This document shows, in pieces, positions 29,788-44,389 of a stretch of 64,000 nt of DNA (positions within the stretch are counted from its first letter, which is position 1; each line of letters opens with the position of its first letter). The position numbers were made by a program, and so were the translations under genes. The notes under the pieces are model-generated. The model had not been told where the DNA came from, did no database searches, and saw only the letters and a program-made list of their open reading frames with translations. This stretch comes from Schwartzia succinivorans DSM 10502 (GTDB lineage Bacteria; Bacillota; Negativicutes; Selenomonadales; Selenomonadaceae): positions 62,001 to 126,000 of the forward strand of contig NZ_FQUG01000007.1 of assembly GCF_900129225.1 (NCBI RefSeq), read 5' to 3'.

Positions 29788-30129
29788 TTAGTACAGCGGC
29801 AATTCATCAACTGTAGCATAAACTGTGGCAAACATATCCATACGGGACTCGGCCAGTACAACCTTCACCATTCCGGACGGCGCCACAAGCGCGAACTCCT
29901 TGCCTTCGGTCTTTGCCTGCTTCGTCAGCCTCAGCAGCACACGAATCCCCGCGCTGGAAAGATATTCAAGCCCGCTCATATCGACAGCGAACCTCTGTGC
30001 CGCCGGGAAAACCTGATCTGCCCGTTCTCCCGCCTCCTGTGCCGTCATCCTGTCCAGCCGCCCACGAACAGCCCAAAGGGTCCACCCGTTTTTCTCGCTT
30101 GTCTGAAATGTAATCGTTTCTTCAGCCAT
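29788..30129 (-). CDS. STAS-domain anti-sigma factor antagonist-like protein
   Basis: Single STAS domain of 113 aa resembling SpoIIAA/RsbV. The phospho-acceptor region reads DMSGLEYLSSAGIRVLL, with Ser residues at the usual site. I chose the ATG at 30129, which has GGAGG 8 nt upstream; the frame continues to a TTG at 30144. It follows the SpoIIE-type phosphatase gene by about 20 nt and is its likely substrate. In partner switching, the dephosphorylated form binds an RsbW-like kinase; the only such domain nearby is fused to the symporter at 34563-36191. Confidence 0.9.
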   Translation of the reverse strand: MAEETITFQTSEKNGWTLWAVRGRLDRMTAQEAGERADQVFPAAQRFAVDMSGLEYLSSAGIRVLLRLTKQAKTEGKEFALVAPSGMVKVVLAESRMDMFATVYATVDELPLY

Positions 30130-30150: not shown

Positions 30151-32376
30151 TCATGGACCTTTGTACGCCAGTCCCAGCATCGTAATGTCATCGGAAGGCT
30201 CTGTACCATCCGCGTGTTCTTCCACCGCACCGCGCACCGCCGTGAGGATTTCTTCTACCGTGCCTGCTTCCGACAACTGAGATATTTTTTCCTGCAGCCT
30301 CGATTCTCCGAACATGTCCAGCTCTCCGTTCATAGCCTCAGTCACACCGTCGGTGTAAAGGAAAAGCAAATCACCCGGGGAAAGTATCAGACGCTCCGCG
30401 GGAAATTCCATTCCTTCCATCACGCCGAGCATCGGCCCCTTTGCCACCGGCATAAATGCAAAGCTTCCGTTTCGCCGCACCAATGGAGGTTTGTGCCCCG
30501 CGTTCACATAGACAAATTCTCCCGTTTCGACGTCCAGTACACCTGTAAACACCGTCACGAACATCCCCTCCTCGTTGGCCTCCACGAGGCGGTCGTTGGT
30601 TCGGGCCACGACCTCCGACAGCCATGGATGGCTTAGTGTCAGCGGGGCGGCAGGACGTCGCTGCTTCCCGTTGACCGACAGTTTGTCTCCCGTGCCGTAG
30701 GTAAGCGCACAGTCCTTGAGAAGCGTCTTCACTGCCACCATGAAAAGCGCGGCAGGCACGCCTTTGTCCGAAACGTCCGCCACCGTGACCATCAAATGTT
30801 TCTCATCAAGGAAATAAAAATCGTAAAAGTCACCGCCGACCACCTTCGCCGGCTCCATAGACGCGAAAAGGTCAAACTCGCTCCGCGTGGGGAATTTTTT
30901 AGGCAGGATGCTCGCCTGTATGCGTGCCGCCACCGAAAGCTCCGTCTCGATGCGCTCGTTCTCCGCCGTCGTTTTTGCGAGATTTTCGATATACGATTTC
31001 AGCTCGTCCGTCATCTGATTGAAGCTGTCTGCCAATGTTTCGATCTCGTCGCCGGTCTTGACGTCAAGCTTCTTGTCGAGGTTACCGCCCGAAATTTCGC
31101 GCACCCCCGCCGTCAGAGCAAGGATAGGACGTACGAAGCGGTCCGAGACCTTTCGGCTCGCGAAAAAGAGCGCCGCCAAAAGCACCAGAAGCAGAACCGC
31201 CGTCCGCAAGAGGTTATCCCAGAAAAAGGAACGCAGTGACGCGGAATAAGTCTCCGCCTGTGTCAAAAGGTACGATTTAGCGTCCCGCGCCGGCTGCACT
31301 ACGACGTCACGCTCAATCAAAGTGCCAAAGCTCCAGCCGACGTCTGGAATCGGCGCGTAAGCAAGATAATATTCCCTGCCTCCCATCGTGATCCGCGCCA
31401 CGTCGGACAGTCCCCGGGTCATGCACGCCGCTTCCAGCGCAAGGGACATCTCTCCGTACTTTTGAAAATCCTTCGGCGTCGCTGAAGCGGCCAACGGTCC
31501 TTCCTTTTCCGAGGAAAGAATGACCTCTCCCTTCTCGTTCAAGATAAAGTTAACGCCCCTGTCCCCGATTGTATTAATCGAGATTTGCCGATACAATGTG
31601 GCGATATTATTGGAAATACCGGCCACACCCGCAAAACCGTTTTCGTCGTAATAGGGCGCGACGCAGGAAATACAGGGATACCCCTCCACCCCGACATAAA
31701 CGCCTGTGAACACAGCCTTCCCGGTCGCCTTGACTTCCTGATACCATGGGCGTTCTCTCGGATCGAAGGCAGGCGAGTACCAAGTATCAAAAAACTCTAC
31801 AAAATCCTTCCCCTCCGCCATAACGTCCGCGCTGATGATATATCCGCGCTCAGAGGCATAAAAGCAAGTCATCTCGTACCCGTCGTCATAACTCTGCGTC
31901 CAAAGCGCCAAATTGTCCGCCGCGTTGGCCGCAATCCGCGCTTCGGACAAGACGTCATCGATCCCACCGCTTTCGCGAAGCGCAGGGATGAAAAAAAGAT
32001 ATGGTTCCTTGGACCTTACGGGAACTTCGCCACCAAACGGCAGCTCACGCGGCAGGTAAAGCTCCTTATGTGTCAAAATCTGCGTCATCGTCTTGGCAAG
32101 AAGATTCGCATCCTCTCGAAGTCGGCCTATCTCGTTATTGACGCCGCGCGCCTTTTCTTCCGCCATGAGGGCGAACCGCTTTTTCGCCTGCTCGTCAGTA
32201 GTTTCCTCTGCAAAGGCCGCGGCGGAATTTCCCATTTCCCGGCCGTTCTCGAGAGCGTATTCCTGCGCGCCATACAGGCCTATGAAGGAAACTGCCTCAA
32301 AGGCAGCAAAACACGCAAGCCCTGTAAAAAACAGCAGCAGGAAAATCCGCCGCTCAATGCTCATCCTGCCGGTCAA
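30151..32376 (-). CDS. SpoIIE/RsbU-like PP2C phosphatase with Cache-type sensor and HAMP
   Basis: Membrane phosphatase of about 741 aa. A transmembrane helix near the N-terminus is followed by a large periplasmic sensor resembling a double Cache domain (about 50-370, with WYQEVKATGKAVFTGVY). A second helix near 400-420, HAMP (VREISGGNLDKKLDV) and a C-terminal PP2C/SpoIIE domain (about 490-740) complete it. The PP2C domain has metal motifs VGGDFYDFY and SPGDLLFLYTDGVTEA. The TTG at 32376 is preferred, with AAGGGGGGCG before it; an ATG at 32364 is possible. It probably dephosphorylates the adjacent STAS protein in response to an external signal. Confidence 0.9.
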   Translation of the reverse strand: MTGRMSIERRIFLLLFFTGLACFAAFEAVSFIGLYGAQEYALENGREMGNSAAAFAEETTDEQAKKRFALMAEEKARGVNNEIGRLREDANLLAKTMTQILTHKELYLPRELPFGGEVPVRSKEPYLFFIPALRESGGIDDVLSEARIAANAADNLALWTQSYDDGYEMTCFYASERGYIISADVMAEGKDFVEFFDTWYSPAFDPRERPWYQEVKATGKAVFTGVYVGVEGYPCISCVAPYYDENGFAGVAGISNNIATLYRQISINTIGDRGVNFILNEKGEVILSSEKEGPLAASATPKDFQKYGEMSLALEAACMTRGLSDVARITMGGREYYLAYAPIPDVGWSFGTLIERDVVVQPARDAKSYLLTQAETYSASLRSFFWDNLLRTAVLLLVLLAALFFASRKVSDRFVRPILALTAGVREISGGNLDKKLDVKTGDEIETLADSFNQMTDELKSYIENLAKTTAENERIETELSVAARIQASILPKKFPTRSEFDLFASMEPAKVVGGDFYDFYFLDEKHLMVTVADVSDKGVPAALFMVAVKTLLKDCALTYGTGDKLSVNGKQRRPAAPLTLSHPWLSEVVARTNDRLVEANEEGMFVTVFTGVLDVETGEFVYVNAGHKPPLVRRNGSFAFMPVAKGPMLGVMEGMEFPAERLILSPGDLLFLYTDGVTEAMNGELDMFGESRLQEKISQLSEAGTVEEILTAVRGAVEEHADGTEPSDDITMLGLAYKGP

Positions 32377-32421
32377 ATGAACGCCCCCCTTCTTCGCAAT
32401 ATTGCTTCGACAACCAAAAGA

Positions 32422-32463
32422 CACTAAACATGCCTTCTCCCCGCAGGTAAAGCATGTTTAGTG
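32422..32463 (-). terminator. Hairpin between a precursor gene and the phosphatase gene
   Basis: Twelve-bp perfect stem CACTAAACATGC/GCATGTTTAGTG (32422-32433 and 32452-32463) with an 18-nt loop; TCTTTT follows on the minus strand. It lies between the last precursor gene and the phosphatase start, so it may terminate or weaken read-through. Confidence 0.6.
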
Positions 32464-32512: not shown

Positions 32513-32812
32513 TTAAAGGTGCTGGAACCTGCAGCCTTTATATACCCTGTCCAGATTAACCTTGAGCTCGCCCAGCTTATCCGCCCGGATTCCCCCAAAG
32601 AAGTGGGTATGAACGCCTCTCTCGATTCCCAGGCTCATGAGAGATTTCCCCGCCATAATCCCTTTGACCTGTTCGGGGGTCAATCTGTCGTTGGCGCTGA
32701 CGACGTTGTATTTTCCGTCCTTGCGCTTCACAAAGTACGCGTACCCGACGCCGCCCGCCACGTTATCCAGTTCCATGTCGGTCATCACTTTATCTAACAA
32801 TTCGTCCGTCAT
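32513..32812 (-). CDS. Double-glycine leader bacteriocin-like precursor A
   Basis: Protein of 99 aa with a leader ending in MTDMELDNVAGG (about residues 10-21), the pattern cleaved by C39 peptidase-ABC transporters such as the one at 41164-43380. The mature part would be about 78 residues: basic, with several Gly, three His and one Cys near the end, and no dense Cys/Ser/Thr pattern of a lanthipeptide. GGGAGGAG precedes the ATG. Terminator-like hairpins lie on both sides, so its expression may be uncoupled from its neighbours. Export is well supported; antibacterial or signalling activity is inference. Confidence 0.8.
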   Translation of the reverse strand: MTDELLDKVMTDMELDNVAGGVGYAYFVKRKDGKYNVVSANDRLTPEQVKGIMAGKSLMSLGIERGVHTHFFGGIRADKLGELKVNLDRVYKGCRFQHL

Positions 32813-32856
32813 CGTCTTCTCCTCCCTTCATTTCCCGAGCCGCCTTTCTTTCTGTG

Positions 32857-32884
32857 AAAAAGCCCGCGTTTTGCGGGCTTTTTT
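32857..32884 (-). terminator. Strong terminator between precursor genes
   Basis: Stem AAAAAGCCCGC/GCGGGCTTTTT (32857-32867 and 32873-32883) with a 5-nt loop and T-run. It separates the CFI-box-like precursor from precursor A. Confidence 0.85.
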
Positions 32885-32899
32885 GTTACATAGCCGCAC

Positions 32900-33451
32900 T
32901 TACGCCGCCGCGCTCACCAGTCCTTCAGCGTAACGCACCATTGCGATATAGAGCCGCTTGCATTCCTCATTTCTGCCCTCGGCAATCAGTGCGAGACAGG
33001 GGCGGATATAACGGCTGAGAAGCTCTTCGCAAAGCTCGCTGTAGTTCGGAGATTCCTTCATTGCGCGGACAATGCCGGGAGCAATCTCGTAGTATTCATC
33101 GATCAGCTCCTTGCCGCCCGGCTGCTTCGCCAGCCACTCGTCACGATAGGCCCGCAGCGTCGTCAGCTCCTCGCAGTCATCCGCCTTGCCCAGATATTCG
33201 CAGACTGCCGTGGTGAGGAAACAGCCCTTATGCTTTCCGCCGGGTTTCATAACTTTGTGGCCTCCTGCCACAGCGTCCAGCTCCTCACCGGTGAGCTTAC
33301 CCTTCTCCTGATTTGCCAGATACGCCTCCGCCTCTTCTACGGTCAGTTCGACGCCGTTCTCCTTCGCGAGGGCTGCGAGTTCCTCTGCCGTCTTGCAAGC
33401 CGAAGCCTTTTCCAGCATTTCCTTCGTAATCTCTTTGTCTCCGATTTTCAT
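32900..33451 (-). CDS. Leader-bearing protein with a folded CFI-box-like domain (precursor B)
   Basis: Protein of about 183 aa; the start at 33451 has AAGGAGG 8 nt upstream. Residues 1-68 form a helical leader resembling Nif11/NHLP-type leaders (ITKEMLEKASACKTAEELAA) and end in LTGEELDAVAGG. The following 115 residues are not peptide-like. They contain KGCFLTTAVCEYLGKADDC, which resembles the CFI-box domain, and a long helical region ending in Ala-rich sequence. A globular domain behind an export leader is unusual. It could be an exported small enzyme or a carrier protein. Its 5' neighbour is precursor C. Confidence 0.72.
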   Translation of the reverse strand: MKIGDKEITKEMLEKASACKTAEELAALAKENGVELTVEEAEAYLANQEKGKLTGEELDAVAGGHKVMKPGGKHKGCFLTTAVCEYLGKADDCEELTTLRAYRDEWLAKQPGGKELIDEYYEIAPGIVRAMKESPNYSELCEELLSRYIRPCLALIAEGRNEECKRLYIAMVRYAEGLVSAAA

Positions 33452-33500
33452 GATGTTTTCCTCCTTCTTGAATTCAAGATTATTCAAGATGAACTCACTA

Positions 33501-33806
33501 CTACTTTATGTCGTGCACAATCACTTCGTAGCCGCGTTTTTCCCATCGCTCCTTCAATTTGTCGATATACTGCGGATTCACGTGATGCCAGACCTTATAG
33601 CCCTTGCTGTTTTTCATGAGCTGGTCCACATATTGGAAATTTCCCTGTTTGGTGAACTTAATGAGCTCGTCCATATCTCCCTGATAATCCCCGCCGATCG
33701 CGAAATTCGGCCAGACATTCCGGAACAGGACGACTACCTTTTTGCCTCCCACCACATTCTCCAGTTCATCGTCCGTCATCTGCTTGTTCATCAATTCGTT
33801 TGCCAT
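33501..33806 (-). CDS. Double-glycine leader bacteriocin-like precursor C
   Basis: Protein of 101 aa with the leader MANELMNKQMTDDELENVVGG, cleaved after GG by family precedent. The mature segment of about 80 residues is rich in Lys, Tyr, Val and Trp, lacks Cys, and ends in a likely helix and strand (RWEKRGYEVIVHD). AAGGAGG precedes the ATG and a promoter-like repeat lies upstream at 33846-33902. No modification signature is seen. It is probably secreted through the NHLM exporter. Confidence 0.82.
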   Translation of the reverse strand: MANELMNKQMTDDELENVVGGKKVVVLFRNVWPNFAIGGDYQGDMDELIKFTKQGNFQYVDQLMKNSKGYKVWHHVNPQYIDKLKERWEKRGYEVIVHDIK

Positions 33807-33845
33807 TTTCGTTACCTCCTTTTTGAATTACATCATTGTTTCTCT

Positions 33846-33902
33846 TTTTCCTTTCATCTGTATATGTGCTTGAGCCGAAAAATCCTGACAGGTTTTTGAA
33901 AA
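33846..33902 (-). promoter_or_regulatory. Repeated promoter-like sequence, copy 2
   Basis: About 57 bp that match 34490-34546 with about seven differences. On the minus strand the order is CCTGTCAGGATTTTTC, then about 10 variable bases, then ATATACAG and GAAAGGAAAA. It sits upstream of precursor C. The spacing suits a -35/-10 pair for an ECF-type sigma factor, and one is encoded at 37694-38266. TCCTGTCAGGA in copy 1 is a perfect palindrome; here it is interrupted by one base. Confidence 0.5.
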
Positions 33903-33915
33903 TGCAGTGATTCTT

Positions 33916-34221
33916 TTATTTCCCATACTTTTTATGAAGCATATCCATGATTTCTGCATGAGAATATTTCTTATTCCTGTCATAGTAGCTGTTTTTTGAA
34001 TCTTCGCTGTTATCTTGAATATTCAAGGCAACGCTGATGTTCAGATCACGATTCACCAGAATACACGCCTGCCTCGCTGCAGCCTCCAAGTTGCTCGGCA
34101 TCTTAACCCCTTTAGACTTGTAGAATTTGATAAGCTCATAGGTTTCTATTCTCGTCCCGCCGGTCACCTGCGCCAGCTCATCCTCATTCATCGTTTTTGC
34201 CATGATTTCTTCATTTGCCAT
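33916..34221 (-). CDS. Double-glycine leader bacteriocin-like precursor D
   Basis: Protein of 101 aa with a leader ending in MNEDELAQVTGG (about 11-22). The mature part of 79 residues is basic, has one Cys, two predicted helices (LEAAARQACILVNRDL and HAEIMDMLHKKY) and an Asn/Ser/Asp-rich middle. It is unrelated in sequence to precursors A and C beyond the leader. AGGGAGG precedes the ATG. It lies 17 nt downstream of the 77-aa accessory gene and probably shares its promoter. Confidence 0.8.
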   Translation of the reverse strand: MANEEIMAKTMNEDELAQVTGGTRIETYELIKFYKSKGVKMPSNLEAAARQACILVNRDLNISVALNIQDNSEDSKNSYYDRNKKYSHAEIMDMLHKKYGK

Positions 34222-34237
34222 TTTGCCTGCCTCCCTC

Positions 34238-34471
34238 TTATCGTTTATTTTTATCCTTTGATTTTTCCGTCACAATCGGATTACCTGCCGCTGCCACCAT
34301 GTCCAGTGCCTCGTCGTCCAGCTGCCGCGTCCAGAGGCTTCCGCTTCCCTCCGCGATACTCCCCTGTGAACGTCGCATGGAGAGGAGCTTGTGCAGCAAC
34401 GGGACGCGCACCGGGCTAAGAAGGGAAAAATCAAATTCCCCGAGCTTCCGTTCCAGTTCTTTACCATCCAT
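34238..34471 (-). CDS. Small accessory protein of the secretion locus
   Basis: Protein of 77 aa; the ATG at 34471 has GGAGGGCGG upstream, while the frame stays open to 34501. The N-terminal half (FDFSLLSPVRVPLLHKLLSMRR) is amphipathic and basic. The C-terminal half has LDDEALDMVAAAGNP, which resembles a degenerate double-glycine leader site in which GG is replaced by AG. I do not recognise a named family. It may be a precursor with an atypical site or a leader-like chaperone for export. It is first behind promoter-like copy 1. Confidence 0.65.
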   Translation of the reverse strand: MDGKELERKLGEFDFSLLSPVRVPLLHKLLSMRRSQGSIAEGSGSLWTRQLDDEALDMVAAAGNPIVTEKSKDKNKR

Positions 34472-34489
34472 CTGCGCCGCCCTCCTTTC

Positions 34490-34547
34490 TTTTCCTTTCA
34501 CCTGTATATATGCGTCAGCTGAAAAATCCTGACAGGATTTTGAAAAA
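34490..34547 (-). promoter_or_regulatory. Repeated promoter-like sequence, copy 1
   Basis: Partner of 33846-33902. On the minus strand it carries the palindrome TCCTGTCAGGA followed by TTTTTC, then GCATATATACAGG and GAAAGGAAAAG, and ends just before the Shine-Dalgarno of the 77-aa gene. Conservation over the whole unit while the flanks diverge points to function as promoter or operator. Confidence 0.55.
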
Positions 34548-34562
34548 ATATTGAAAAAAATA

Positions 34563-36191
34563 TTACAACCGATTCCGTGGCGCGTCTCCGTTTTCCTTCG
34601 TACGTGCCAAAAGGAGCGTGCTTGTGATATTTGAGGTCACGTTGCCGACCGTGTTAATCATGCTCACGATTGGATCAATACACAGAAATAACATAACCGC
34701 TCCCATCGGTATGCCTACGGCAGCAAAAACCGTAGAAAGACCGATAAGCACCGCCCCCGGACATCCAGGCAGCGTAAAGGAAACGATGAACAGTGATATG
34801 AACATAGAAAGCATGGTGTCCGTATCCAACGCAATGCCGCAGGTCCGGGCCATCAATACCGTGACGATGGCGATATAAAATCCTGTGCTGTTCATGTTGA
34901 GCTGTATGCCCACGGGCAGCGCGAACATGGAAAGCTTTCGGTCGACACCGAATTTTTCCGCGCAAAAGGAGATAGTCTGCGGCAGGCAGGCATTGGAGCT
35001 GTTCAACGCAAAGGGAACGGGGGCAAAGCACGCGAGCTGCTTTAGAAAATGTCCGGGAGCCATACCCCCGAAGGCCGCAGCGAAAGCCGCGCAGACAAGA
35101 AACACAAGTCCGAGTCCGATAACGTCGCCAATCAGGACTTTCCCCAAGGGGAGCAATGCCTCAAGCCCGGTGGACAGCATCAGATGCGCCATAGACGCAA
35201 AGACAAGCAGCGGAATGAACTGCACTACGACGTCAATCATGTCCATGCACAGGCGATTCAAAAACTCTATGGCCTCCTTTACCGGCATTGCCCGATCGCC
35301 AGCCCGGTTAATCATCACCCCGACAAAGCAGGCAAGAAAAAGTACCTGAAGGATACTTCCTCCCAAAAAAGGCTTCATAAGACTGTTGGGAATAATACCT
35401 ACAATCATGTCCCTCAAAGAAAATTCCGCCGCTTTGCCCCCCTCCGGGATTGTCGCAAGAAGCTCAGGCGATGCGTCCGGAAACAAAAGAACACCGGCCG
35501 TTATGCCAATGAGGGCAGTGACAAGAAGCTTTGTGAGAGAAACGGCAACGAGTTTTCCGCCGAGCCGCCCCACGTCCTCCGCATCTGAAATTCCGGTGAT
35601 GCCTGACAGCACAGCAAAAAACACCATCGGCGCCACCATCATCAGAAGGGCATTCATGAACATCTCCTGAACTGAATCAAGAATCATATGATCAATCCAT
35701 CGAAGCGGGACCTCTCCGAGAAAGGCCTTCATCAGAAGCCCTGAAGCAACCCCCAATACAAGAGCCGCGACAACCTTTCCCGTCTGCTTGCCGTCAGCTT
35801 CATGCACTTTGACTGAGATGACGTTCTCACCGTTTTTACGGCTATAGCCAATCCTGTTCTTATACGACAGCAGGATGGCAAGGCCGTATGAGTCTACCCC
35901 GTCGTGTTCCAATATCTCATTAGTTCCTGACAACGGATTGTACGCTTCCCCCTTTGCCGACAGGCGGAAGGATATATCTCCCCACCGCTGCCGCACAACT
36001 AGCAGTGCGGAAAAATCTTCGGTCGGGGAAAAAGCCGCTTCCATCCGTGAAAAACATTCTTCAAAAAGAAGCTGCGCCGTTCGTTGCTCTTCTTCCGTTG
36101 CTTTCGTCTTTGCCAGTTCCGCATCCAGCCACGCCACAGCCTCACTGAAATTTAGTCCGGATACCCGGAATGTGTTGCTTTTCAAAAACAT
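34563..36191 (-). CDS. Dicarboxylate/amino-acid:cation symporter with N-terminal RsbW-like domain
   Basis: Fusion protein of about 542 aa. Residues 1-130 resemble a SpoIIAB/RsbW HATPase: FEECFSRM at the N-box position, AKGEAYNPL at the DxGxG position, SYGLAIL, and the C-terminal YSRKNGENVISVKV. The N-box Asn and the G1 Asp appear to be replaced (Ser, Ala), so kinase activity is doubtful. Residues 135-530 form a DAACS/GltP-like sodium or proton symporter (ANLTP-like region LNSSNACLPQT; MNSTGFY). Fusion to a transporter is unusual. It lies between TolC and precursor genes, with a SpoIIE phosphatase and a STAS protein in the same locus. The GTG at 36194 is an alternative start. Confidence 0.8.
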   Translation of the reverse strand: MFLKSNTFRVSGLNFSEAVAWLDAELAKTKATEEEQRTAQLLFEECFSRMEAAFSPTEDFSALLVVRQRWGDISFRLSAKGEAYNPLSGTNEILEHDGVDSYGLAILLSYKNRIGYSRKNGENVISVKVHEADGKQTGKVVAALVLGVASGLLMKAFLGEVPLRWIDHMILDSVQEMFMNALLMMVAPMVFFAVLSGITGISDAEDVGRLGGKLVAVSLTKLLVTALIGITAGVLLFPDASPELLATIPEGGKAAEFSLRDMIVGIIPNSLMKPFLGGSILQVLFLACFVGVMINRAGDRAMPVKEAIEFLNRLCMDMIDVVVQFIPLLVFASMAHLMLSTGLEALLPLGKVLIGDVIGLGLVFLVCAAFAAAFGGMAPGHFLKQLACFAPVPFALNSSNACLPQTISFCAEKFGVDRKLSMFALPVGIQLNMNSTGFYIAIVTVLMARTCGIALDTDTMLSMFISLFIVSFTLPGCPGAVLIGLSTVFAAVGIPMGAVMLFLCIDPIVSMINTVGNVTSNITSTLLLARTKENGDAPRNRL

Positions 36192-36260
36192 CACCCTTGC
36201 TCAGTTTTTTGGTACAGGGTTGAAAATCCTGCACCCTGCTGCAATTTTTGTCCTCCGCCT

Positions 36261-37697
36261 TTACTTTTTGTCTCCAGTTTTTTCCATGTCCGCCGAAACG
36301 GCAGGATGAAGCGAAGCTTCGTCGAAGGCCCTCGGTTCTGACTTTCCTTCATCTCTTGCGGCTACATAACGCGGCACATCAATGTCCACAGGGACGCCCA
36401 TAGCCTTTGCAAGCGCCGCTTTGTTCAGATTGTACTCGTAAAGCGCCGTATAATAATTTGTGCGGGCCTGGGTTAACTTTTCCTGCGCATCCGTCACTGC
36501 AAGCAGAATATCAACGCCCTCCTCATAGCGGACCTTAGCAATCTCATAACGATTCTCGGCATACTTAATCGCTTCAGCTGTAGTTTGTATATTGGCTTCC
36601 GCCGCCTTCATCCGAATATAGGCGCTCTCTGTCTGCAGCCTGACGTTCCGCAGCAAAAGCTCCGCTTCAGCCTGCGCACGCTCAGCTGTATACTTTGCCG
36701 CGTTGACGTTAGCCGCAGTCACCATATTGTCAAAAACATTCCACGAAAGAGTAACTCCCGCTTCCCACGCTTCGCTTCGCTCATGGCGAAAAGCTTTTTC
36801 ATCGGCAATGCTTTTTGAGGCGACGGCGGAGAGGGTAGGCCGATAGCCTGACTTCGCCGCTTGCTTCTGCGCCTCCGCAGATTTCACCGTATATTGCGCC
36901 GCCGCCGCATCCGGGCGGTTTTCCAACGCATAGTCCAAACACTCGGAAAGCTCCAAACCAAACGGTTCATAGGAAAAGCTGTCCGTCGTCTCAAACTCCG
37001 TATCTGCTGGCAGCCCGATGCAGGCAAGCAAAGATTTCTTCGCGACGGAGAGAGTTCCCTCCGCGCTTACCAGGCTCTGCTGATAGTTCGCGAGCTGCAC
37101 CTGCATCTGGAGCACATCTGACTTTGCCACCGCACCTTCACTAAACTGCGCTTCAATCAGGGCAAGCTGCGTACCTGACATCCGTACCGCGCTTTCGGCT
37201 ACCTGCACAAGATTTTTCCGCTGCAGCACGTTGTAATAGGCTTCGGTAGTTTGATATTTCACAGTCTGCTTTGTGTTTTCCAGCGTAAGGTCAGCGGAAG
37301 AAAGACCGTGATGGCGCGCCTCGATATTGTTCTCTACGCGTCCCCCCGTGTAGAGCGGAAACTCGGCAGAAACGCTATTCGTAAATCTGTGCTCATATGG
37401 GTCGTCACTTAATCCAATCCTGTACCGCTGCCGATACCCTTCATAGTCCGAACCCCCGATACGATTTGCACCGGAACGCCAATTGATATTGAAGCCGGAG
37501 GCACGGCGGGCAGCGGAAAGCTGCCATTTCGCCGTTTGCTTTCCTGCCTCAGCAGCCGCAATGCTCTCGTCACTTTCGAGGGCCATCTCGACACTCTCAG
37601 ACAGGGAAAGCGGTATCGCGGCCTCGCAGAATGCGCAGCTCGTCGCGAAAAACATCGCCGCCGCAAGGCGTCCCGCCTGTTTCATCAGTATCCTCAT
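36261..37697 (-). CDS. TolC-family outer-membrane efflux protein
   Basis: Outer-membrane channel of 478 aa with a signal peptide (about 1-26) and the two repeated coiled-coil halves of the OEP family (for example LSLSESVEMALESDESIAAAEAG and LELSECLDYALENRPDAAAAQ). It should form a trimeric conduit for the ABC transporters and HlyD adaptors of this locus, giving one-step type I secretion across both membranes. Its presence is the clearest sign of an outer membrane. The start overlaps the sigma gene stop (ATGA). Confidence 0.93.
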   Translation of the reverse strand: MRILMKQAGRLAAAMFFATSCAFCEAAIPLSLSESVEMALESDESIAAAEAGKQTAKWQLSAARRASGFNINWRSGANRIGGSDYEGYRQRYRIGLSDDPYEHRFTNSVSAEFPLYTGGRVENNIEARHHGLSSADLTLENTKQTVKYQTTEAYYNVLQRKNLVQVAESAVRMSGTQLALIEAQFSEGAVAKSDVLQMQVQLANYQQSLVSAEGTLSVAKKSLLACIGLPADTEFETTDSFSYEPFGLELSECLDYALENRPDAAAAQYTVKSAEAQKQAAKSGYRPTLSAVASKSIADEKAFRHERSEAWEAGVTLSWNVFDNMVTAANVNAAKYTAERAQAEAELLLRNVRLQTESAYIRMKAAEANIQTTAEAIKYAENRYEIAKVRYEEGVDILLAVTDAQEKLTQARTNYYTALYEYNLNKAALAKAMGVPVDIDVPRYVAARDEGKSEPRAFDEASLHPAVSADMEKTGDKK

Positions 37698-38266
37698 TGA
37701 TTTTCCTCCAAATATTTTTTCAGCATCTTCCTACTCCGTGAAAGGGATGCCCATACGGCCTCCGCCGTCATACCGAGCTCTTTCGCTATTTCTTCCGCCG
37801 ACATATCCAGCCAATAGGTCATAGTGAGGATCTTTTGCTCCCTCTCCGAAAGCTTTTGCAGCGCACCGTGAAGCTCTTTTTCCTGCTCCCGTTTTACAAT
37901 CCGCGTCTCGGGGCTTTCCTTTTCCGGCGCCGGCGGGTCGAACCCCTCATCCCATGACTTATCCAACGAGCTTCGATTCCCCCGTAATATCATGCGAAAC
38001 TCATTGACTGCAATCCGGAACAGCCACGTAGAAAAAGCTCCCCTGCGCTCGTCGTATTCGGCAAGATGGACGTACATATTGAGGAACGTGCGGCTGATTG
38101 ACTCGTCAGCCATTTCCACATTCCGACATTTCGACAGCAGGAATTTATAGACCACCGGAAAAAATTCATTGTAAAGCTCCACGAACGCGCCTTCGTCCGC
38201 GACGGCGAGAGCCGCAGTTTTATTCCAATATAAGCGTCGTTCTTCAATTGAAGGTTGTTGTATCAT
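37694..38266 (-). CDS. ECF-like RNA polymerase sigma factor
   Basis: Sigma-70 family protein of about 190 aa with region 2 (FVELYNEFFPVVYKFL...FSTWLFRIAVNEFRMI) and region 4 (LSEREQKILTMTYWLDMSAEEIAKELGMTAEAVWASLSRSRKML). It lacks regions 1 and 3. The ATG at 38266 is chosen because AAGGGA lies 7 nt upstream; the longer frame to 38365 runs through repeat DNA. No classical anti-sigma gene follows. It probably directs transcription of this locus; the repeated sequences at 33846 and 34490 are candidate targets. Confidence 0.88.
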   Translation of the reverse strand: MIQQPSIEERRLYWNKTAALAVADEGAFVELYNEFFPVVYKFLLSKCRNVEMADESISRTFLNMYVHLAEYDERRGAFSTWLFRIAVNEFRMILRGNRSSLDKSWDEGFDPPAPEKESPETRIVKREQEKELHGALQKLSEREQKILTMTYWLDMSAEEIAKELGMTAEAVWASLSRSRKMLKKYLEENQ

Positions 38267-38289
38267 AATGGATTCCCTTAAAAATTGTT

Positions 38290-38465
38290 TAGTACTCCCT
38301 CCGGCACTTCGTGCCAAGCGACATGCCACCGGCATGTCGCTCCTCAAAGAGGGAGGCTTAACCACGAGTCTATCTGTTCAGCCTGCCACCTCCCTCAAGG
38401 AGAGAGGCTTAACCAAAGTCCCTCTCTTTGAGGAGGATGTCAGCACAGCTGACAGGGGGAGTCTT
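38290..38465. repeat. Cluster of REP-like palindromic units
   Basis: Nested hairpins fill the gap between the ABC gene and the sigma gene: CTCCCTC/GAGGGAG (38295-38301 and 38349-38355) encloses GGCAC/GTGCC and a 10-bp stem GCGACATGCC/GGCATGTCGC (38318-38340). A second related unit has the direct repeat GAGGCTTAACCA and ends in GTCAGC/GCTGAC. Such units are common between genes in gut Firmicutes. They could stabilise or end the upstream mRNA. Confidence 0.7.
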
Positions 38466-38470
38466 CCAAA

Positions 38471-41167
38471 TTACGCGACTTGCCGTTTCACAAGCTCGGC
38501 GAAAATGCCACCCTTTTTCATCAGCTCGTCAAAGCCGCCCACCTCTGCAACGCGCCCTTCATCCAACACAATCACGCGGTCGCACCCACGTATCGTTGAA
38601 AGACGATGGGCAATAACAATTCGCGTGGCTTTCAGTCGGTCGAGACTCTCGGTGACTATAGCCTGAGAGCGGTTGTCAAGGGCGCTGGTCGCTTCGTCGA
38701 AAATCAGGATTGCCGGTTTCCCCACGAGGGCGCGGGCAATCAGGAGGCGCTGCCGCTGACCGCCTGAAATATTAGAGCTGCCTTCGCTGATGACGGTCTG
38801 CATTCCCATGGGCATTTCCGAGATGTCCTGGGCAATGCCCGCCGCTTCCGCAGCCTCCCAGGCATCGTCCTGCGTGAGCAGTCGCGTGCCTACAATATTG
38901 GTATAAATGTCGCCTGTCATCAGCTGACCATTTTGCAGCACCACGCCCATCTGCGTGCGAACCGAAGGCAGAGAAAGCTCCGAAAGATCCTGTCCGTCGT
39001 AATGAACCGACCCCTTCGTCGGCTTTTCGAATCCCAATAGACAGCGAACCAACGTGGATTTCCCGCAGCCGGATTTTCCGACAATTGCGACATTCTCCCC
39101 GGCACGGACGCGAAAACTAACGTCGTGCAACACCTCTTCGCCGCCCTCATAGGCGAAGGAAAGGTGGCGGACCTCCATCGCGCCTGTCAGCGTCTCGGCA
39201 TCCGCCTTGTCTCCGGCGCTCTCCGGTACTTCCTGCAAAATCGGGCGCAAATTTTCAAGCTGTGGCTGGATGCCAAAGAAGGTTCCGATGAAGCCCATGA
39301 CCTGCCCCAGCGTCCCGTTGAAGGACGAATACGCCGCGCTGAACGCCATGAATTGCGCATAGCTGATTCCCTGCTGCACGGCTTTTCCGCCGGTGCCTGC
39401 ATCGCCGTTGCCGTTTACCGCGATATAGTAAAGCAGCATCGTCAGGATAAAGGGCTGGATGCTCGAAATAATCGATGTATAGTTGTTCTGCCAACGGAGC
39501 TTGAGTTCCCAGTTCCACTGATTACCGAAATCACGGCTCCACAAGTGGTATGCATGTTCCTCGGCACCCTGTACGCGGAACTTCGCCAATCCGGCGAAAA
39601 TCTGCTGCACCGTTCCTGCCGTCTTGTTACTTGCCTCAATAATCTTTCGCTGAAATTCCAGTACCCGGCGAAAAACAAAAAAAACGAACAGGGAATAAAC
39701 TATCCAGACTCCTATCGCTGCAGCCGTCAGCTTCAAGCTGTAGTAGCACATCAGGAAAATGCTCCAAAAGGAAAAAATGAAGCTGAATACGGTTCCGACA
39801 AAGTTGCCGGAAACGAGTCCCTTGACAGCGCCGAGGCCGCCCATGCGTCCTGCCAGCTCGCCCACAGTGTAACGGCGAAAGAAATTGGGTGGAAGCGATA
39901 AAAGCCGCCCCCAAAGTGCTGACTCAGAGGTGATTTCGATTTTCGTCGCAATACGCATGATTGCAATAGAACGCACTATAGACAGTGCCGCTGTCGTAAA
40001 GCTTGTAACCATCAGCGCCTGCGTGACGGTGGCAAGTCCCTGTCTGTCGAGGATGGGAATGATATCCTGGAAAATCGTCTCGGTGATGATGGGCGTAGCC
40101 AGCGGAATCAATCCCGCAACTAAACTCGTAATGATAATTGTGCGGTAATCGGCTTTCCAGCACTGCCTGAACATGAATTTCAGGAGATCCATGACCTTCA
40201 GTGCCCTTGCCGGAAATCCTGCGTAGCAGGCAAACGCGTCCTTCGCGATTTGCTCAGCCGTCTCGTCGTCGATGGGAATCCCCTGAGGATGTCCGGGCGT
40301 CACCGCCCGATAATGCTCCGGCGAACTCGGAAGCAGCGCGGCTAGTTGCTTTTCTTCTCCCCAATAACCAATCATGATGCCGATATCCTGCTTGTGCCAC
40401 CCATCCGGAAGCGACACAAGACGAAGCTGCATATTCCCTTTTTGCGTGAGGCGGCGCAGTATCCCCACCTGATCAAGCCGAGCCGCCGTATCGGCGGAAA
40501 GTCTGATATTTTCTACAGGCATTCCCATAGCCTTTGCGACTTCAGTGACGACAAACACCGCCTCACCAACAACCTCTCCGCCATCCCCGAAGCTCTCATA
40601 CGGAAGCGGCTCCTCGCCCAAAAGATTCCGAATGGAATTTTCGACGAGCATCCTTTTGCCCCAGGCGCGAAGCTTTATGCGGCGAGAGAGGCGTTTGTCC
40701 TCAGAACCGAACTGCATTCCGAGGAACATCGCGAAAATCTGCTCGTTCTCGGTAAACTCCGTCATCAACGCATCGCTTTCGACGGCACCCTCCAGTACCG
40801 TATCATCCCGCCACGACCGGAGAATATCGTCACCCTTGTCCGCCATGAGACGCAGCCACGGAATCTCCCCGAGATTCTTGAACCACGTTTTCATCAGCGG
40901 TTTCAAAGTTTCTGGCGTCAGGCCGTCAAAAGGAATTTCCTCCAGCTCGATATCGGAGGCAGCCGAAACCACCACCTCAATCTCGCCAAACTCGTCCAAA
41001 GCCGGAAACGCCGCGTCGCCCTCACCCAGAGTCATCAGGTAAAACTGGCGGAAGGAAGCGTCACCCGTTGTCACGGCATAGACTTCTGCACTGCCGGAAA
41101 CGATTTTAGCGAATTTATTTTCTTCCGTTAATTCGAATCGTTCCCCGACGTTCATCTTCACTTTCAT
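38471..41167 (-). CDS. NHLM bacteriocin-system ABC transporter, ATP-binding protein
   Basis: Large ABC exporter of 898 aa (TIGR03797-like). An N-terminal region of about 380 residues, partly resembling a cyclic-nucleotide-binding fold, precedes a six-helix membrane domain (about 340-620). The ATPase has Walker A (GKSGCGKST), signature NISGGQRQR and Walker B (ILIFDEATSALD). It lacks a C39 peptidase, which its neighbour provides. The two probably act as a pair in export of leader peptides. Its start overlaps the neighbour's stop by four bases. Confidence 0.92.
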   Translation of the reverse strand: MKVKMNVGERFELTEENKFAKIVSGSAEVYAVTTGDASFRQFYLMTLGEGDAAFPALDEFGEIEVVVSAASDIELEEIPFDGLTPETLKPLMKTWFKNLGEIPWLRLMADKGDDILRSWRDDTVLEGAVESDALMTEFTENEQIFAMFLGMQFGSEDKRLSRRIKLRAWGKRMLVENSIRNLLGEEPLPYESFGDGGEVVGEAVFVVTEVAKAMGMPVENIRLSADTAARLDQVGILRRLTQKGNMQLRLVSLPDGWHKQDIGIMIGYWGEEKQLAALLPSSPEHYRAVTPGHPQGIPIDDETAEQIAKDAFACYAGFPARALKVMDLLKFMFRQCWKADYRTIIITSLVAGLIPLATPIITETIFQDIIPILDRQGLATVTQALMVTSFTTAALSIVRSIAIMRIATKIEITSESALWGRLLSLPPNFFRRYTVGELAGRMGGLGAVKGLVSGNFVGTVFSFIFSFWSIFLMCYYSLKLTAAAIGVWIVYSLFVFFVFRRVLEFQRKIIEASNKTAGTVQQIFAGLAKFRVQGAEEHAYHLWSRDFGNQWNWELKLRWQNNYTSIISSIQPFILTMLLYYIAVNGNGDAGTGGKAVQQGISYAQFMAFSAAYSSFNGTLGQVMGFIGTFFGIQPQLENLRPILQEVPESAGDKADAETLTGAMEVRHLSFAYEGGEEVLHDVSFRVRAGENVAIVGKSGCGKSTLVRCLLGFEKPTKGSVHYDGQDLSELSLPSVRTQMGVVLQNGQLMTGDIYTNIVGTRLLTQDDAWEAAEAAGIAQDISEMPMGMQTVISEGSSNISGGQRQRLLIARALVGKPAILIFDEATSALDNRSQAIVTESLDRLKATRIVIAHRLSTIRGCDRVIVLDEGRVAEVGGFDELMKKGGIFAELVKRQVA

Positions 41168-43380
41168 TCCTCCGCCTCCCGTTCCTCAATCAAATGCCGG
41201 TAAGGCCCGTCATGCTGCATCATTTCCCTATGGGTCCCCCGTTCCACCACATTGCCACGCTCCAGTACGATAATCTCGTCGCAGTCACGGATGGTGGAAA
41301 GACGATGGGCGACAATCAGGCAGGAGCATCCACGATGCCTTATATTTTCCAGCACGGCCTTTTCCGTAATCGGGTCGAGAGCACTGGTAGCTTCATCCAG
41401 CACAAGAAGCGACGGGTTCACCGCAAGCGCGCGGGCAATCTCCAGCCGCTGCCGTTGGCCTCCTGAGAAATTCAGCCCGCCCTCGGCGACATTCGCTTCA
41501 TATCCGCCCTCCAGCTTCATGATATCCTCGTGAATACAGGCATCCTCCGCCGCCTGTACGATGTCACTCCGTGACACCGAAGCGTCAAACAGCGCGATAT
41601 TTTCCGCAACTGTACCCGTAATCAGAAAAATATCCTGATCCACTGCCGCCACGGAATTCAAAATCACGCTTCGGGGGAGCTTTTCCCTGGGCACGCCGTC
41701 AAAGGCCACCGTGCCGCCCCACTCCATGTACAACCCTGTGATGATTTTCGCCAGTGTCGACTTGCCGCTGCCGGATGCCCCCACCACAGCCACCCATCCG
41801 CCGGGGCGAAGGTGCATATTGAACCCCGCCAATAACGGTTTTTCCAAAGGACTGTACCCGAAGCTCACATCCGAAAGTGTCAATTCCCCGGACAGCCTCT
41901 CCCGCGGAAATGTCCGCTGTGCATCGTCTTCCGGAAAGTTCAGTTCATCTACCTTATAGCGGCGCACATCGTTCAGCCGCTGCATCTGCATTTCCGTCGT
42001 CTGGAGCGCCGAGCCAAGCCCAACCAGCGTGTTCACCGGAGCCTGGAAGCTTCCCATCAGATTCTGGAACGCCATGAACATACCGGCAGTCATCGCACCG
42101 TCCATGATTGAGAATCCTCCGAAGGTCATTATCAGCGCTCCGTTGATACCGCCGAGGAGCGTCGGCAGAAGCGTCACCGATAACTGCCACATGGCCGTTT
42201 CCTGCGAAGCGGTCAGAACCTTCGTCTGGTAGCCCGCCCATTTTGTGAAGAAATCCGCCTCGTCGCCGTTGGCCTTGATGGTCTCAATCATGCGAAGACC
42301 GTTCATCGCAACGCCGTAGGCCTTGCCCGCGTCCTGCTGAATACGCATATTGAGATCGGTCAGATGACGGCGCATGGCGAAGAAAAGAATAATCCCCACC
42401 GAGCTGAAGGCTATGCCGATGAGAGTCAGCGTCACGTTGTACTGCAACAGCAAAAGCAGATAGAAAACCGCAACAACGAGATCCAGCGCCGCCGTCGCCG
42501 CGGGGCCGGACAAGACACCCGCAATCGCTTCGTTGAATCCCACACGTCCGGCAACCTCCGCAGCGTACCGCTGATGAAAGAACTGCATCGGCAGCCGCAG
42601 AAGGTGCCAAAAATATCCGGAAGAATCTGCCAGCGTCAGCTTCCTCTGCCACGCAGTTAATACCACGGCACGTAGAAAAGAAATCGCGCCCGTAACGATG
42701 AAAGAAACCGTCATGGCAAGACAGAAATTGAACATCCAGTCAGGATGCTTGCGCGTCAAAATGTCATCCATGAAAATCTGGCTCATGACCGGGGCCGCAA
42801 GACCCGGGATAATCGCGCAAAGCTCCAGAATCAGGATGAAAACCATTGCCCATTTGTCCGCTTTGAGCTTGTTCCAGATGTCGCCATACACGCTATATCG
42901 TTTTCCCTCTTTGACGAATCCTTCTCCGGGCTCAACCTTGAGGGCAACACCCGTATAAGAGGTGCGAAACTCCTCCCACGGCACGGTGCGCCGCCCCATG
43001 CCCGGGTCGTTCAGATACGCGATGCCGTCAACAACACCCTCCAGGACGACGAAATGATTAAATTCCCAATGAATAATCAATGGAAAGGGATTCTTCGGCA
43101 CCAGCTCCAAAATATCGCCTGCCGTCCAACGGTAGCCGTCGGCTTTGCAATGGCGCGCCCTCGCCGCGCGGAGTACGCAGCTCGCTTTCGAGCCATCGCG
43201 GTTCACGCCGCATTCCTGCCGAAGCATTTCCAGCGGAATCCAAAGACCGTAATGAGCGAGCACCATGCCAAGAGCCGCCGCGCCACATTCCGTGGCCTCC
43301 ATCTGAAGCACCGTCGGCACTTTTACCCGCGATCCGTCACCGTGGGAGAACATCCCCGAAATTTTATCCATTACGCTCAT
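41164..43380 (-). CDS. NHLM bacteriocin-system ABC transporter with C39 peptidase
   Basis: Peptidase-containing exporter of 738 aa (TIGR03796-like). The N-terminal C39 domain (about 20-150) has the catalytic Cys32 in QMEATECGAAALGMV, a His in HFVVLEG and Asp in YLNDPGMGR. A membrane domain and an ATPase with GASGSGKST, NFSGGQRQR and LLVLDEATSALD follow. It should cleave the double-glycine leaders of the four precursors during export. It lies 4 nt from the adaptor gene. Confidence 0.95.
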   Translation of the reverse strand: MSVMDKISGMFSHGDGSRVKVPTVLQMEATECGAAALGMVLAHYGLWIPLEMLRQECGVNRDGSKASCVLRAARARHCKADGYRWTAGDILELVPKNPFPLIIHWEFNHFVVLEGVVDGIAYLNDPGMGRRTVPWEEFRTSYTGVALKVEPGEGFVKEGKRYSVYGDIWNKLKADKWAMVFILILELCAIIPGLAAPVMSQIFMDDILTRKHPDWMFNFCLAMTVSFIVTGAISFLRAVVLTAWQRKLTLADSSGYFWHLLRLPMQFFHQRYAAEVAGRVGFNEAIAGVLSGPAATAALDLVVAVFYLLLLLQYNVTLTLIGIAFSSVGIILFFAMRRHLTDLNMRIQQDAGKAYGVAMNGLRMIETIKANGDEADFFTKWAGYQTKVLTASQETAMWQLSVTLLPTLLGGINGALIMTFGGFSIMDGAMTAGMFMAFQNLMGSFQAPVNTLVGLGSALQTTEMQMQRLNDVRRYKVDELNFPEDDAQRTFPRERLSGELTLSDVSFGYSPLEKPLLAGFNMHLRPGGWVAVVGASGSGKSTLAKIITGLYMEWGGTVAFDGVPREKLPRSVILNSVAAVDQDIFLITGTVAENIALFDASVSRSDIVQAAEDACIHEDIMKLEGGYEANVAEGGLNFSGGQRQRLEIARALAVNPSLLVLDEATSALDPITEKAVLENIRHRGCSCLIVAHRLSTIRDCDEIIVLERGNVVERGTHREMMQHDGPYRHLIEEREAEE

Positions 43381-43384
43381 AGAT

Positions 43385-44389
43385 TCACCTGTTCCTCAAC
43401 CATTGAGAGAGCTTTTGAAAGACCTTTTCGATGGGAGGCTTGCGCTCGATGATGATGCTTCCCGTACAAAAACTGCCGGCTGTGACAGGCTTATGAGTAC
43501 CAACAGAGGAAGTCCAAAGATAGCCGGATTCGGAGCTTTCATCCTTCACAAGATCAAAAGTGACCTCCATCACCGCGCTCTGCTGCGTCTGTACAATCCA
43601 CCGTGCCAGCTGGTCATTGCCAAGCCGCTTTTGCATGGCCTGCAGCGTAGTCGGGTATTGTGAAACGGAGCGCACTGTGCCCAAGAGACTGCCCGACTGT
43701 GAAACGTCCACGCCGTTCGGCGCAAGCTGGATGGTCATGCCGGGCTTGATACGCTTGCCCTTATCCACGGGCACGTAAAGAACCCCCTTGAGGTCTTTTC
43801 GCCCGCCTGCCAGCCGCAGACTGCATACCGGAAGCCCCGCCGAAATGGTGCTCCCCTCCTCCACAAGGATTTCATCAACTGTCCCATCATGACTGCTGTA
43901 AATATATTCGGAAGCATTCTTCTGACTGCGGCGCATATCGTATTCCTGCACGCGATTCATCGCGTCACGCCCGCTGGTGGCCAGCTCCGGCCCGTACTGA
44001 GCCATCCGCGTTGCCGCGTTTTCCTGCACCAGCTCGATATGTGCAATACGCTCGCCCTTTTCCACGGTATCACCGGAATGAACATAGATTTTATCCAGCC
44101 TGCCGCCGATAATCGAGGTCACATTCACGACGCCGTTCGGATCCATAATCAGCCCCATACCGGTAGCCTTTACCGTAAACGCCCCAAAAATCGACCAGAG
44201 CACCACCGCGGCCATCATCACCGCCACGGCAATCAGCCCCATCCAACTGATGGGAGAGGTAATCGGCAGCACAGTATCGAGTTTTTCAGGGGAGCGCATC
44301 TTATCCAGCGCCTCTTGGCTGAAGATTGCCTCGCTTTTCTTGTTATACCTCGCTGCTGCGCCTGTATTCGCGACGTTTTCCTCCGCCAT
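43385..44389 (-). CDS. NHLM secretion adaptor, HlyD family
   Basis: Membrane-fusion protein of 334 aa (TIGR03794-like). A cytoplasmic N-terminus of about 50 residues is followed by one transmembrane helix (about 50-72). A periplasmic barrel/lipoyl region follows (GGRLDKIYVHSGDTVEKGERIAHIEL and DGTVDEILVEEGSTISAGLPV). It links the ABC exporter to TolC. The coiled-coil hairpin is short compared with HlyD. The start overlaps the upstream adaptor's stop by one base. Confidence 0.9.
   Translation of the reverse strand: MAEENVANTGAAARYNKKSEAIFSQEALDKMRSPEKLDTVLPITSPISWMGLIAVAVMMAAVVLWSIFGAFTVKATGMGLIMDPNGVVNVTSIIGGRLDKIYVHSGDTVEKGERIAHIELVQENAATRMAQYGPELATSGRDAMNRVQEYDMRRSQKNASEYIYSSHDGTVDEILVEEGSTISAGLPVCSLRLAGGRKDLKGVLYVPVDKGKRIKPGMTIQLAPNGVDVSQSGSLLGTVRSVSQYPTTLQAMQKRLGNDQLARWIVQTQQSAVMEVTFDLVKDESSESGYLWTSSVGTHKPVTAGSFCTGSIIIERKPPIEKVFQKLSQWLRNR

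Follow-up and report, generated by a model that had tools for sequence, protein, structure and literature searches.

Genes of the locus

The window, that is, the whole 64,000-nucleotide stretch of Schwartzia succinivorans DSM 10502 that was analysed, carries on its minus strand a gene (34563-36191, stop codon included) that starts with an ATG at 36191 and encodes a 542-residue protein in which an RsbW-like domain is fused to an SDF transporter. An alternative GTG start lies at 36194, one codon upstream of the ATG, and the plus strand across the same interval is interrupted by stops. The fusion gene is located within an NHLM peptide-export cluster that also contains a TolC-family gene, leader-bearing open reading frames and, two genes upstream of the fusion, the gene for an ECF-type sigma factor. 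Downstream of it on the same strand are genes for a SpoIIE-type phosphatase and a STAS protein, whose presence at the locus had been noted in the initial annotation. The features of the locus, with the evidence for each, are:

29788-30129, minus strand: STAS protein (TIGR00377, anti-sigma antagonist) with an acceptor-type serine in LSSAG; domain search and alignment
30151-32424, minus strand: dCache-HAMP-SpoIIE (PP2C) phosphatase of 757 aa; open reading frame and Pfam
32513-34501, minus strand: five small, leader-like open reading frames (32513-32812, 32900-33487, 33501-33806, 33916-34221 and 34238-34501) with GG-type leader-like ends; partly by eye
34563-36191, minus strand: RsbW-like/SDF fusion gene; open reading frame and Pfam
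34602-35777, minus strand: residues 139-530 of the fusion, SDF (DAACS) transporter domain; Pfam and comparison with GltPh
35802-36191, minus strand: residues 1-130 of the fusion, degenerate SpoIIAB/RsbW-like GHKL domain; predicted structure, profiles and motif alignment
36261-37697, minus strand: TolC-family outer membrane protein, in one gene run with the fusion; domain search
37694-38365, minus strand: ECF-type sigma factor, a possible alternative partner; domain search and neighbour search
38471-41167, minus strand: NHLM_micro_ABC2 peptide exporter (TIGR03797); NCBIfam
41164-43380, minus strand: NHLM_micro_ABC1 peptidase/exporter (TIGR03796); NCBIfam
43385-44389, minus strand: NHLM HlyD-type secretion protein (TIGR03794); NCBIfam

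Among the small open reading frames, 32900-33487 encodes a Nif11-leader/CFI-box protein, and 34238-34501 had no NCBIfam match. By eye, the product of the latter and that of L080:13044-13343 both have a start resembling EFDFSLL-P-R and a leader end of the GG type; the two genes lie in NHLM-type clusters.

A degenerate RsbW-like domain on a DAACS transporter

It had been proposed from the sequence that residues 1-130 are an anti-sigma-kinase-like HATPase domain joined directly to a full DAACS transporter, and both parts of this proposal are borne out. Residues 1-138 have no Pfam match at E<=1, so the N-terminal domain of the window protein is invisible to Pfam, and the curated cut-off of PF13581 (HATPase_c_2) is not reached; the evidence linking it to RsbW comes from the predicted structure, a profile-profile comparison and relatives of the protein. 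The AlphaFold2 model of the first 138 residues, made from an alignment of 36 N-terminal domains, has a pLDDT of 84.5 and a pTM of 0.80. Its best PDB match by E value is SpoIIAB (1tid_A, E 3.8e-6), and its Z scores are 13.0 with UsfX (8jzt_B), 12.7 with RsbW (6m37_C) and 12.5 with SpoIIAB (1th8_A), the first histidine kinases following at 7.7. The profile of the domain aligned over 126 columns with that of six stand-alone RsbW-type proteins (probability 97.9, E 4.6e-13), two of which had originally been found with this same profile. Nothing was found when it was compared with the sequences of solved structures, the best E value being 0.25 for an unrelated protein. In L174, from another family of the phylum, PF13581 covers the full length of the fused domain with an E of 8e-5, at a score of 23.1 bits that is under the curated cut-off of 27.4. 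The SpoIIAB/RsbW (GHKL) fold is thus predicted for residues 1-130 with good confidence.

The SDF domain (PF00375) occupies residues 139-530 and passes the cut-off (E 5.7e-71, 240 bits). In the model of the whole protein (pLDDT 82.6, pTM 0.72), the last strand of the N-terminal domain ends at residue 130 and the first long helix begins at 135, leaving a linker of about 4 residues. A chance joining or an assembly artefact was ruled out, given that the fusion is kept in many genomes, mostly at about 530-545 aa; in a second genome it is 93% identical and of equal length.

The N-box Asn and the G1 Asp, which take part in ATP/Mg binding, are replaced by R and A in the window protein, and GGxG has become DSYG. 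The loss of the first two had been pointed out for this protein, and it extends to the whole family. Compared with RsbW-type domains whose motifs are intact, the Asn is lost in 63 of 63 distinct fusions, 45 of which have R there, the Asp is lost in 63 of 63, and the G2 glycines are mostly missing. These counts, like the tree below, use 63 distinct rows (77 minus 14 second copies or exact-core repeats), the outcome being the same as with all 77. Other positions are retained, namely the Glu preceding the N-box (63/63), the N-box Glu itself (48/63), the G1 Gly (62/63) and the Pro of the NPL motif (62/63). With the Asn, the Asp and most of the G2 glycines gone, the fused domain is unlikely to bind ATP. 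Judged by the roles of these motifs, its fold is apparently under selection.

The transporter domain has also changed. In GltPh, D312, D394, R397 and D405 are substrate and sodium residues; their counterparts in the window protein are N, S, N and N. Since the residues differ, the window transporter probably has a substrate other than aspartate or glutamate, typical symport of these amino acids was not assumed, and transport by this protein, with its altered substrate and cation sites, is putative. Of the 63 distinct fused proteins, 27 retain D394 and 33 retain R397; a near-standard GltPh site is present in other members of the family. The HP2 loop bears a family mark, with Pro in 61 of 63 fused proteins (the other two having gaps) where GltPh has Ala.

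Relatives and their genetic neighbours

Further HATPase-SDF fusions, a search for which had been suggested with the initial annotation, were found. The SDF fusion is conserved across the Selenomonadaceae, and a few other families have it too. The N-terminal domain was matched at E<=1e-3 in 123 of 380 genomes of the class and was also matched in 13 of 398 genomes of a phylum sample, which are upper counts for the SDF fusion, as the weaker matches include stand-alone HATPases and ABC fusions. In a tree of SDF domains, 63 fused and 8 plain, one switch between fused and plain is enough; this fits a single old fusion, followed by much duplication. Several independent SDF fusions were considered and rejected on this one change, in a tree with 8 plain sequences only. 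Tandem pairs of fused genes are found in L106-L109.

Genes for SpoIIE proteins are enriched near the fused transporters. In 20 genomes picked for holding fusions and having few contigs (SpoIIE and SDF genes at E<=1e-10), 14 of the 37 fused SDFs, spread over 9 of these genomes, have a SpoIIE gene within 10 kb, versus 1 of 83 plain SDFs (Fisher p 1.1e-7). The p value overstates independence because the genomes are related. Fused refers here to the fusions among the matches listed, so that any fusion absent from them was scored as plain, and neighbours can be hidden by contig ends. The 23 of 37 fused SDFs that have no SpoIIE gene within 10 kb count against control of the transporter through a STAS protein.

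Neighbours were also surveyed by an all-frame search around 49 fused genes. These come from the window and 45 other stretches, 46 in all, which are not a random sample because they were partly picked for tandem copies; L194, a repeat of L079, was left aside, and L110 yielded no fused gene. A STAS gene is found within 5 kb of 22 of the 49 fused genes (on the same strand in 19 cases), a SpoIIE gene within 5 kb of 15 (always on the same strand), and both within this distance of 13. The acceptor-type serine, which we take to be the residue phosphorylated in SpoIIAA and RsbV, is kept in 17 of 17 distinct same-strand STAS neighbours. An intact stand-alone RsbW lies within 5 kb of four fused genes, at two loci, and an ABC ATPase fusion of the GlnQ type lies within 5 kb of 4 of the 49. 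The 22 fused genes with neither STAS, SpoIIE nor GlnQ-type fusion within 5 kb, among them the clade L083/L084/L085, again count against STAS control.

The most complete arrangement is that of L107, on the minus strand: STAS (9738-9319), RsbW (9322-8864), two fusions (8839-7232 and 7195-5609) and SpoIIE (5590-3374), separated in this order by -4, 24, 36 and 18 nt. The N-box, G1 and G2 motifs of this RsbW are intact and it scores above the PF13581 cut-off (E 1.2e-18); for the two fused transporters Pfam reports SDF alone at E<=0.01. L106 has the same gene set, and no homolog of the window sigma factor was found within 6 kb of the fusions of either locus. As read from its genes, L107 encodes a complete kinase/STAS/phosphatase switch together with two putative pseudokinase-tagged transporters. 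Beside this operon, on the same strand (L107:9875-12846), are two adjacent genes that by eye are SLH-type outer-membrane/porin-like.

At the window locus itself, the all-frame neighbour search found no RsbW kinase within 5 kb of the fusion, which also counts against the STAS reading. The source genome does have an intact RsbW adjoining SpoIIE and STAS on its contig C13, and this kinase could act in trans on the window locus.

Domains of this kind also occur C-terminally in two other sorts of transporter protein, amino-acid ABC ATPases of the GlnQ type and MATE exporters, the two fusions sharing a like build. In the 151 genomes of the family, the domain of the ABC fusions gave 48 matches at E<=2.3e-15, and all 20 of these that were examined are such fusions; the MATE fusions gave 18 matches in 17 of the 151 genomes, with 9 of the 18 examined. 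STAS or SpoIIE lies within 6 kb of 7 of 12 MATE fusions examined, one of them with RsbW, but of only 1 of 23 ABC fusions, which counts against STAS control; three of these 23 are beside an SDF fusion. Because the linkage is so rare, the ABC fusions support RsbW-like appendages on transporters and not their control by STAS. One gene run of L035 combines an ABC-ATPase fusion and an SDF fusion with SpoIIE and STAS, and in L173 a single protein combines binding protein, permease, ATPase and RsbW-like domain.

Several other arrangements were seen. The GlnQ-type ATPases with a degenerate RsbW-like domain at the C-terminus come from L035:3026-4144, L180-L183 and L193-L205, those of L195, L197 and L198 lying in gene runs that include several binding-protein genes in tandem. 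The MATE fusions of L166 and L168 are above the PF13581 cut-off; together with that of L170 (L166:4906-6669, L168:3289-4509, L170:3898-5661) they have kept the N-box Asn and G1 Asp and lost the GGxG glycines, perhaps an intermediate or still nucleotide-binding form. In L171:3602-8976 a MATE fusion is followed on the same strand by SpoIIE and an intact RsbW, making it a MATE counterpart of L107. The source genome has, on contig C15 (L104:4443-10247), SpoIIE, a fusion of STAS with an NRPS-type condensation domain (PF00668) and a MATE/RsbW-like fusion, and STAS-condensation fusions adjoin MATE fusions also in L186-L189. L167:16-6421 carries TolC, STAS, SpoIIE, a SpoIIE-RsbW fusion and an ECF-type sigma factor of the family of that in the window, in an apparent partner-switch circuit acting on this sigma factor. 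In L172:1854-2849 an HATPase_c_2 domain is fused to a DJ-1/PfpI domain.

A candidate switch for transporters and its alternatives

We propose, with a probability of about 0.58, that the N-terminal domain is a STAS-binding pseudokinase through which a Cache-SpoIIE/RsbW switch controls the transporter; binding and gating are what we infer from the observations above. The domain would have kept the RsbW/SpoIIAB fold, would probably neither bind ATP nor phosphorylate STAS, and would probably remain able to bind STAS in its unphosphorylated form. An extracellular compound would be sensed by the Cache domain of the SpoIIE protein, which would set the phosphatase, and an intact RsbW kinase would phosphorylate the STAS serine; L106 and L107 encode such a kinase within the operon, the source genome at another locus. 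Unphosphorylated STAS could then dock on the cytoplasmic RsbW-like domain, which is some 4 residues away from the transporter's first long helix, and switch the transporter on or off. The initial annotation had suggested a transporter that is gated by, or sequesters, a STAS protein. This idea is well supported by the context, that is, by the SpoIIE enrichment, the STAS/RsbW/fusion/fusion/SpoIIE operons and the domains on ABC and MATE proteins, while an anti-sigma role stays in view with the ECF sigma factor. A wider form of the proposal is that pseudokinase RsbW-like domains on SDF, amino-acid ABC and MATE proteins constitute a general and so far undescribed post-translational control of uptake or export by extracellular compounds, through STAS, Cache-SpoIIE and RsbW. 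We advance this tentatively, at slightly less than even odds.

The anti-sigma role would make the fusion a membrane-anchored protein whose RsbW-like domain holds the sigma factor of the NHLM cluster (37694-38365) until it is displaced by STAS that SpoIIE has released, with the SDF domain as an anchor or sensor. A sigma factor of the same family is indeed encoded within 6 kb of 3 of the 49 fused genes, those of the window, of its near relative L074 and of L080, the last of which also has SpoIIE and Nif11-type peptides. Moreover, in L167 this family follows TolC-STAS-SpoIIE-SpoIIE/RsbW in what resembles a real sigma circuit, and for this reason a membrane-held anti-sigma role is possible for the window copy. 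However, the remaining 46 fused genes, including those of the complete operons of L106 and L107, have no such sigma gene within 6 kb, parallel domains are found on ABC and MATE transporters, and RsbW-type proteins classically bind sigma factors of the B/F type and not ECF factors. On balance we consider this explanation unlikely. Information could also flow in the reverse direction, from SDF to STAS, if the SDF domain were a transporter-like sensor that binds a ligand without much transport and thereby alters the hold of the RsbW-like domain on STAS. The D312N, D394S, R397N and D405N replacements of the window protein, and the partial retention of D394 and R397 in the family, would agree with such a sensor. 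The near-standard site of other members would not, a dedicated Cache sensor is already supplied by the SpoIIE protein and, to our knowledge, ABC ATPases and MATE proteins, which carry the domain as well, are not among the kinds of protein known as sensors; we regard a sensor as rather improbable.

A purely structural or assembly module, serving oligomerisation, stability or membrane targeting after STAS binding was lost, would account for the 22 of 49 copies without signalling genes or ABC fusions nearby, but hardly for the strong enrichment of SpoIIE near fused and not plain SDFs, or for neighbours that are on the same strand in all cases for SpoIIE and in most for STAS, and we give it a slightly lower chance than the sensor. 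As to the domain still being active as a STAS kinase, with an ATP site of a non-standard type, by which the transporter would report its state through phosphorylation of STAS, there are compact loci (e.g. L089 and L093) where STAS, SpoIIE and a fusion were found with no separate kinase nearby, and the N-box Glu is mostly kept; the universal loss of the N-box Asn and G1 Asp and the loss of most G2 glycines make this highly improbable.

Partner switching is known chiefly from the regulation of sigma factors; its few other outputs include a diguanylate cyclase. We found no description of RsbW-like/transporter fusions in the open-access literature, preprints being outside the scope of the search. 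Where HATPase_c_2 is named in papers that were checked for MATE fusions, it figures in domain lists only. The text of PMC11418112 has no transporter or fusion terms, and the available part of a review of STAS-only proteins (PMC8256260) describes no transporter output via an RsbW-like domain. On the proposed reading, the fused transporters would be a case of the familiar partner switching with a new class of output, unless gating through domains of this kind should turn out to be general. If the proposed pseudokinase switch is true, its transporter output would couple the sensing of outside compounds to uptake in a single rapid step after translation, and in rumen Selenomonadaceae outside signals may switch transport directly and not via gene expression. 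Since compact operons such as that of L107 hold phosphatase, kinase, STAS and transporters together, the idea is testable with five proteins.

The fused domain is like the anti-sigma kinases SpoIIAB, RsbW and UsfX (GHKL, PF13581) in its fold, in the order of strands and helices, in the NPL and G-x-N motifs and in the STAS and PP2C genes nearby. Unlike them, it has no ATP-binding residues, is carried on a transporter and rarely has a sigma gene of the window's kind nearby. The transporter part is like the DAACS proteins GltPh, GltTk and the EAATs (PF00375) in having a complete SDF domain, and differs from them in the extra N-terminal cytoplasmic domain and the altered substrate and cation residues. 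The SpoIIE protein of the window resembles SiaA of the SiaABCD system of Pseudomonas aeruginosa (NF038263, E 7e-23, far under the cut-off). SiaABCD is a partner switch whose output, as proposed here, is not a sigma factor; it differs in acting on a diguanylate cyclase and in having its kinase as a protein of its own (PMC7647112).

In MlaFEDB, the STAS protein MlaB is bound to the ABC ATPase MlaF and control of the transporter has been proposed, the control of active MlaB being an open question according to the authors (PMC7367683). There, MlaB binds the ATPase directly, and the accessible portion of that paper mentions no RsbW-like domain, phosphatase or kinase for MlaFEDB (PMC7367683). If our proposal holds, it would also have consequences for the question of how transporters are controlled by STAS proteins, as the fusion would mirror the MlaB arrangement, with the partner of STAS, and not STAS, built into the transporter. 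SLC26/SulP proteins also join a transporter to a partner-switch domain, and there it is STAS itself that is fused (PMC8256260). In the SDF fusions it is the putative partner of STAS that is fused, so STAS could come and go.
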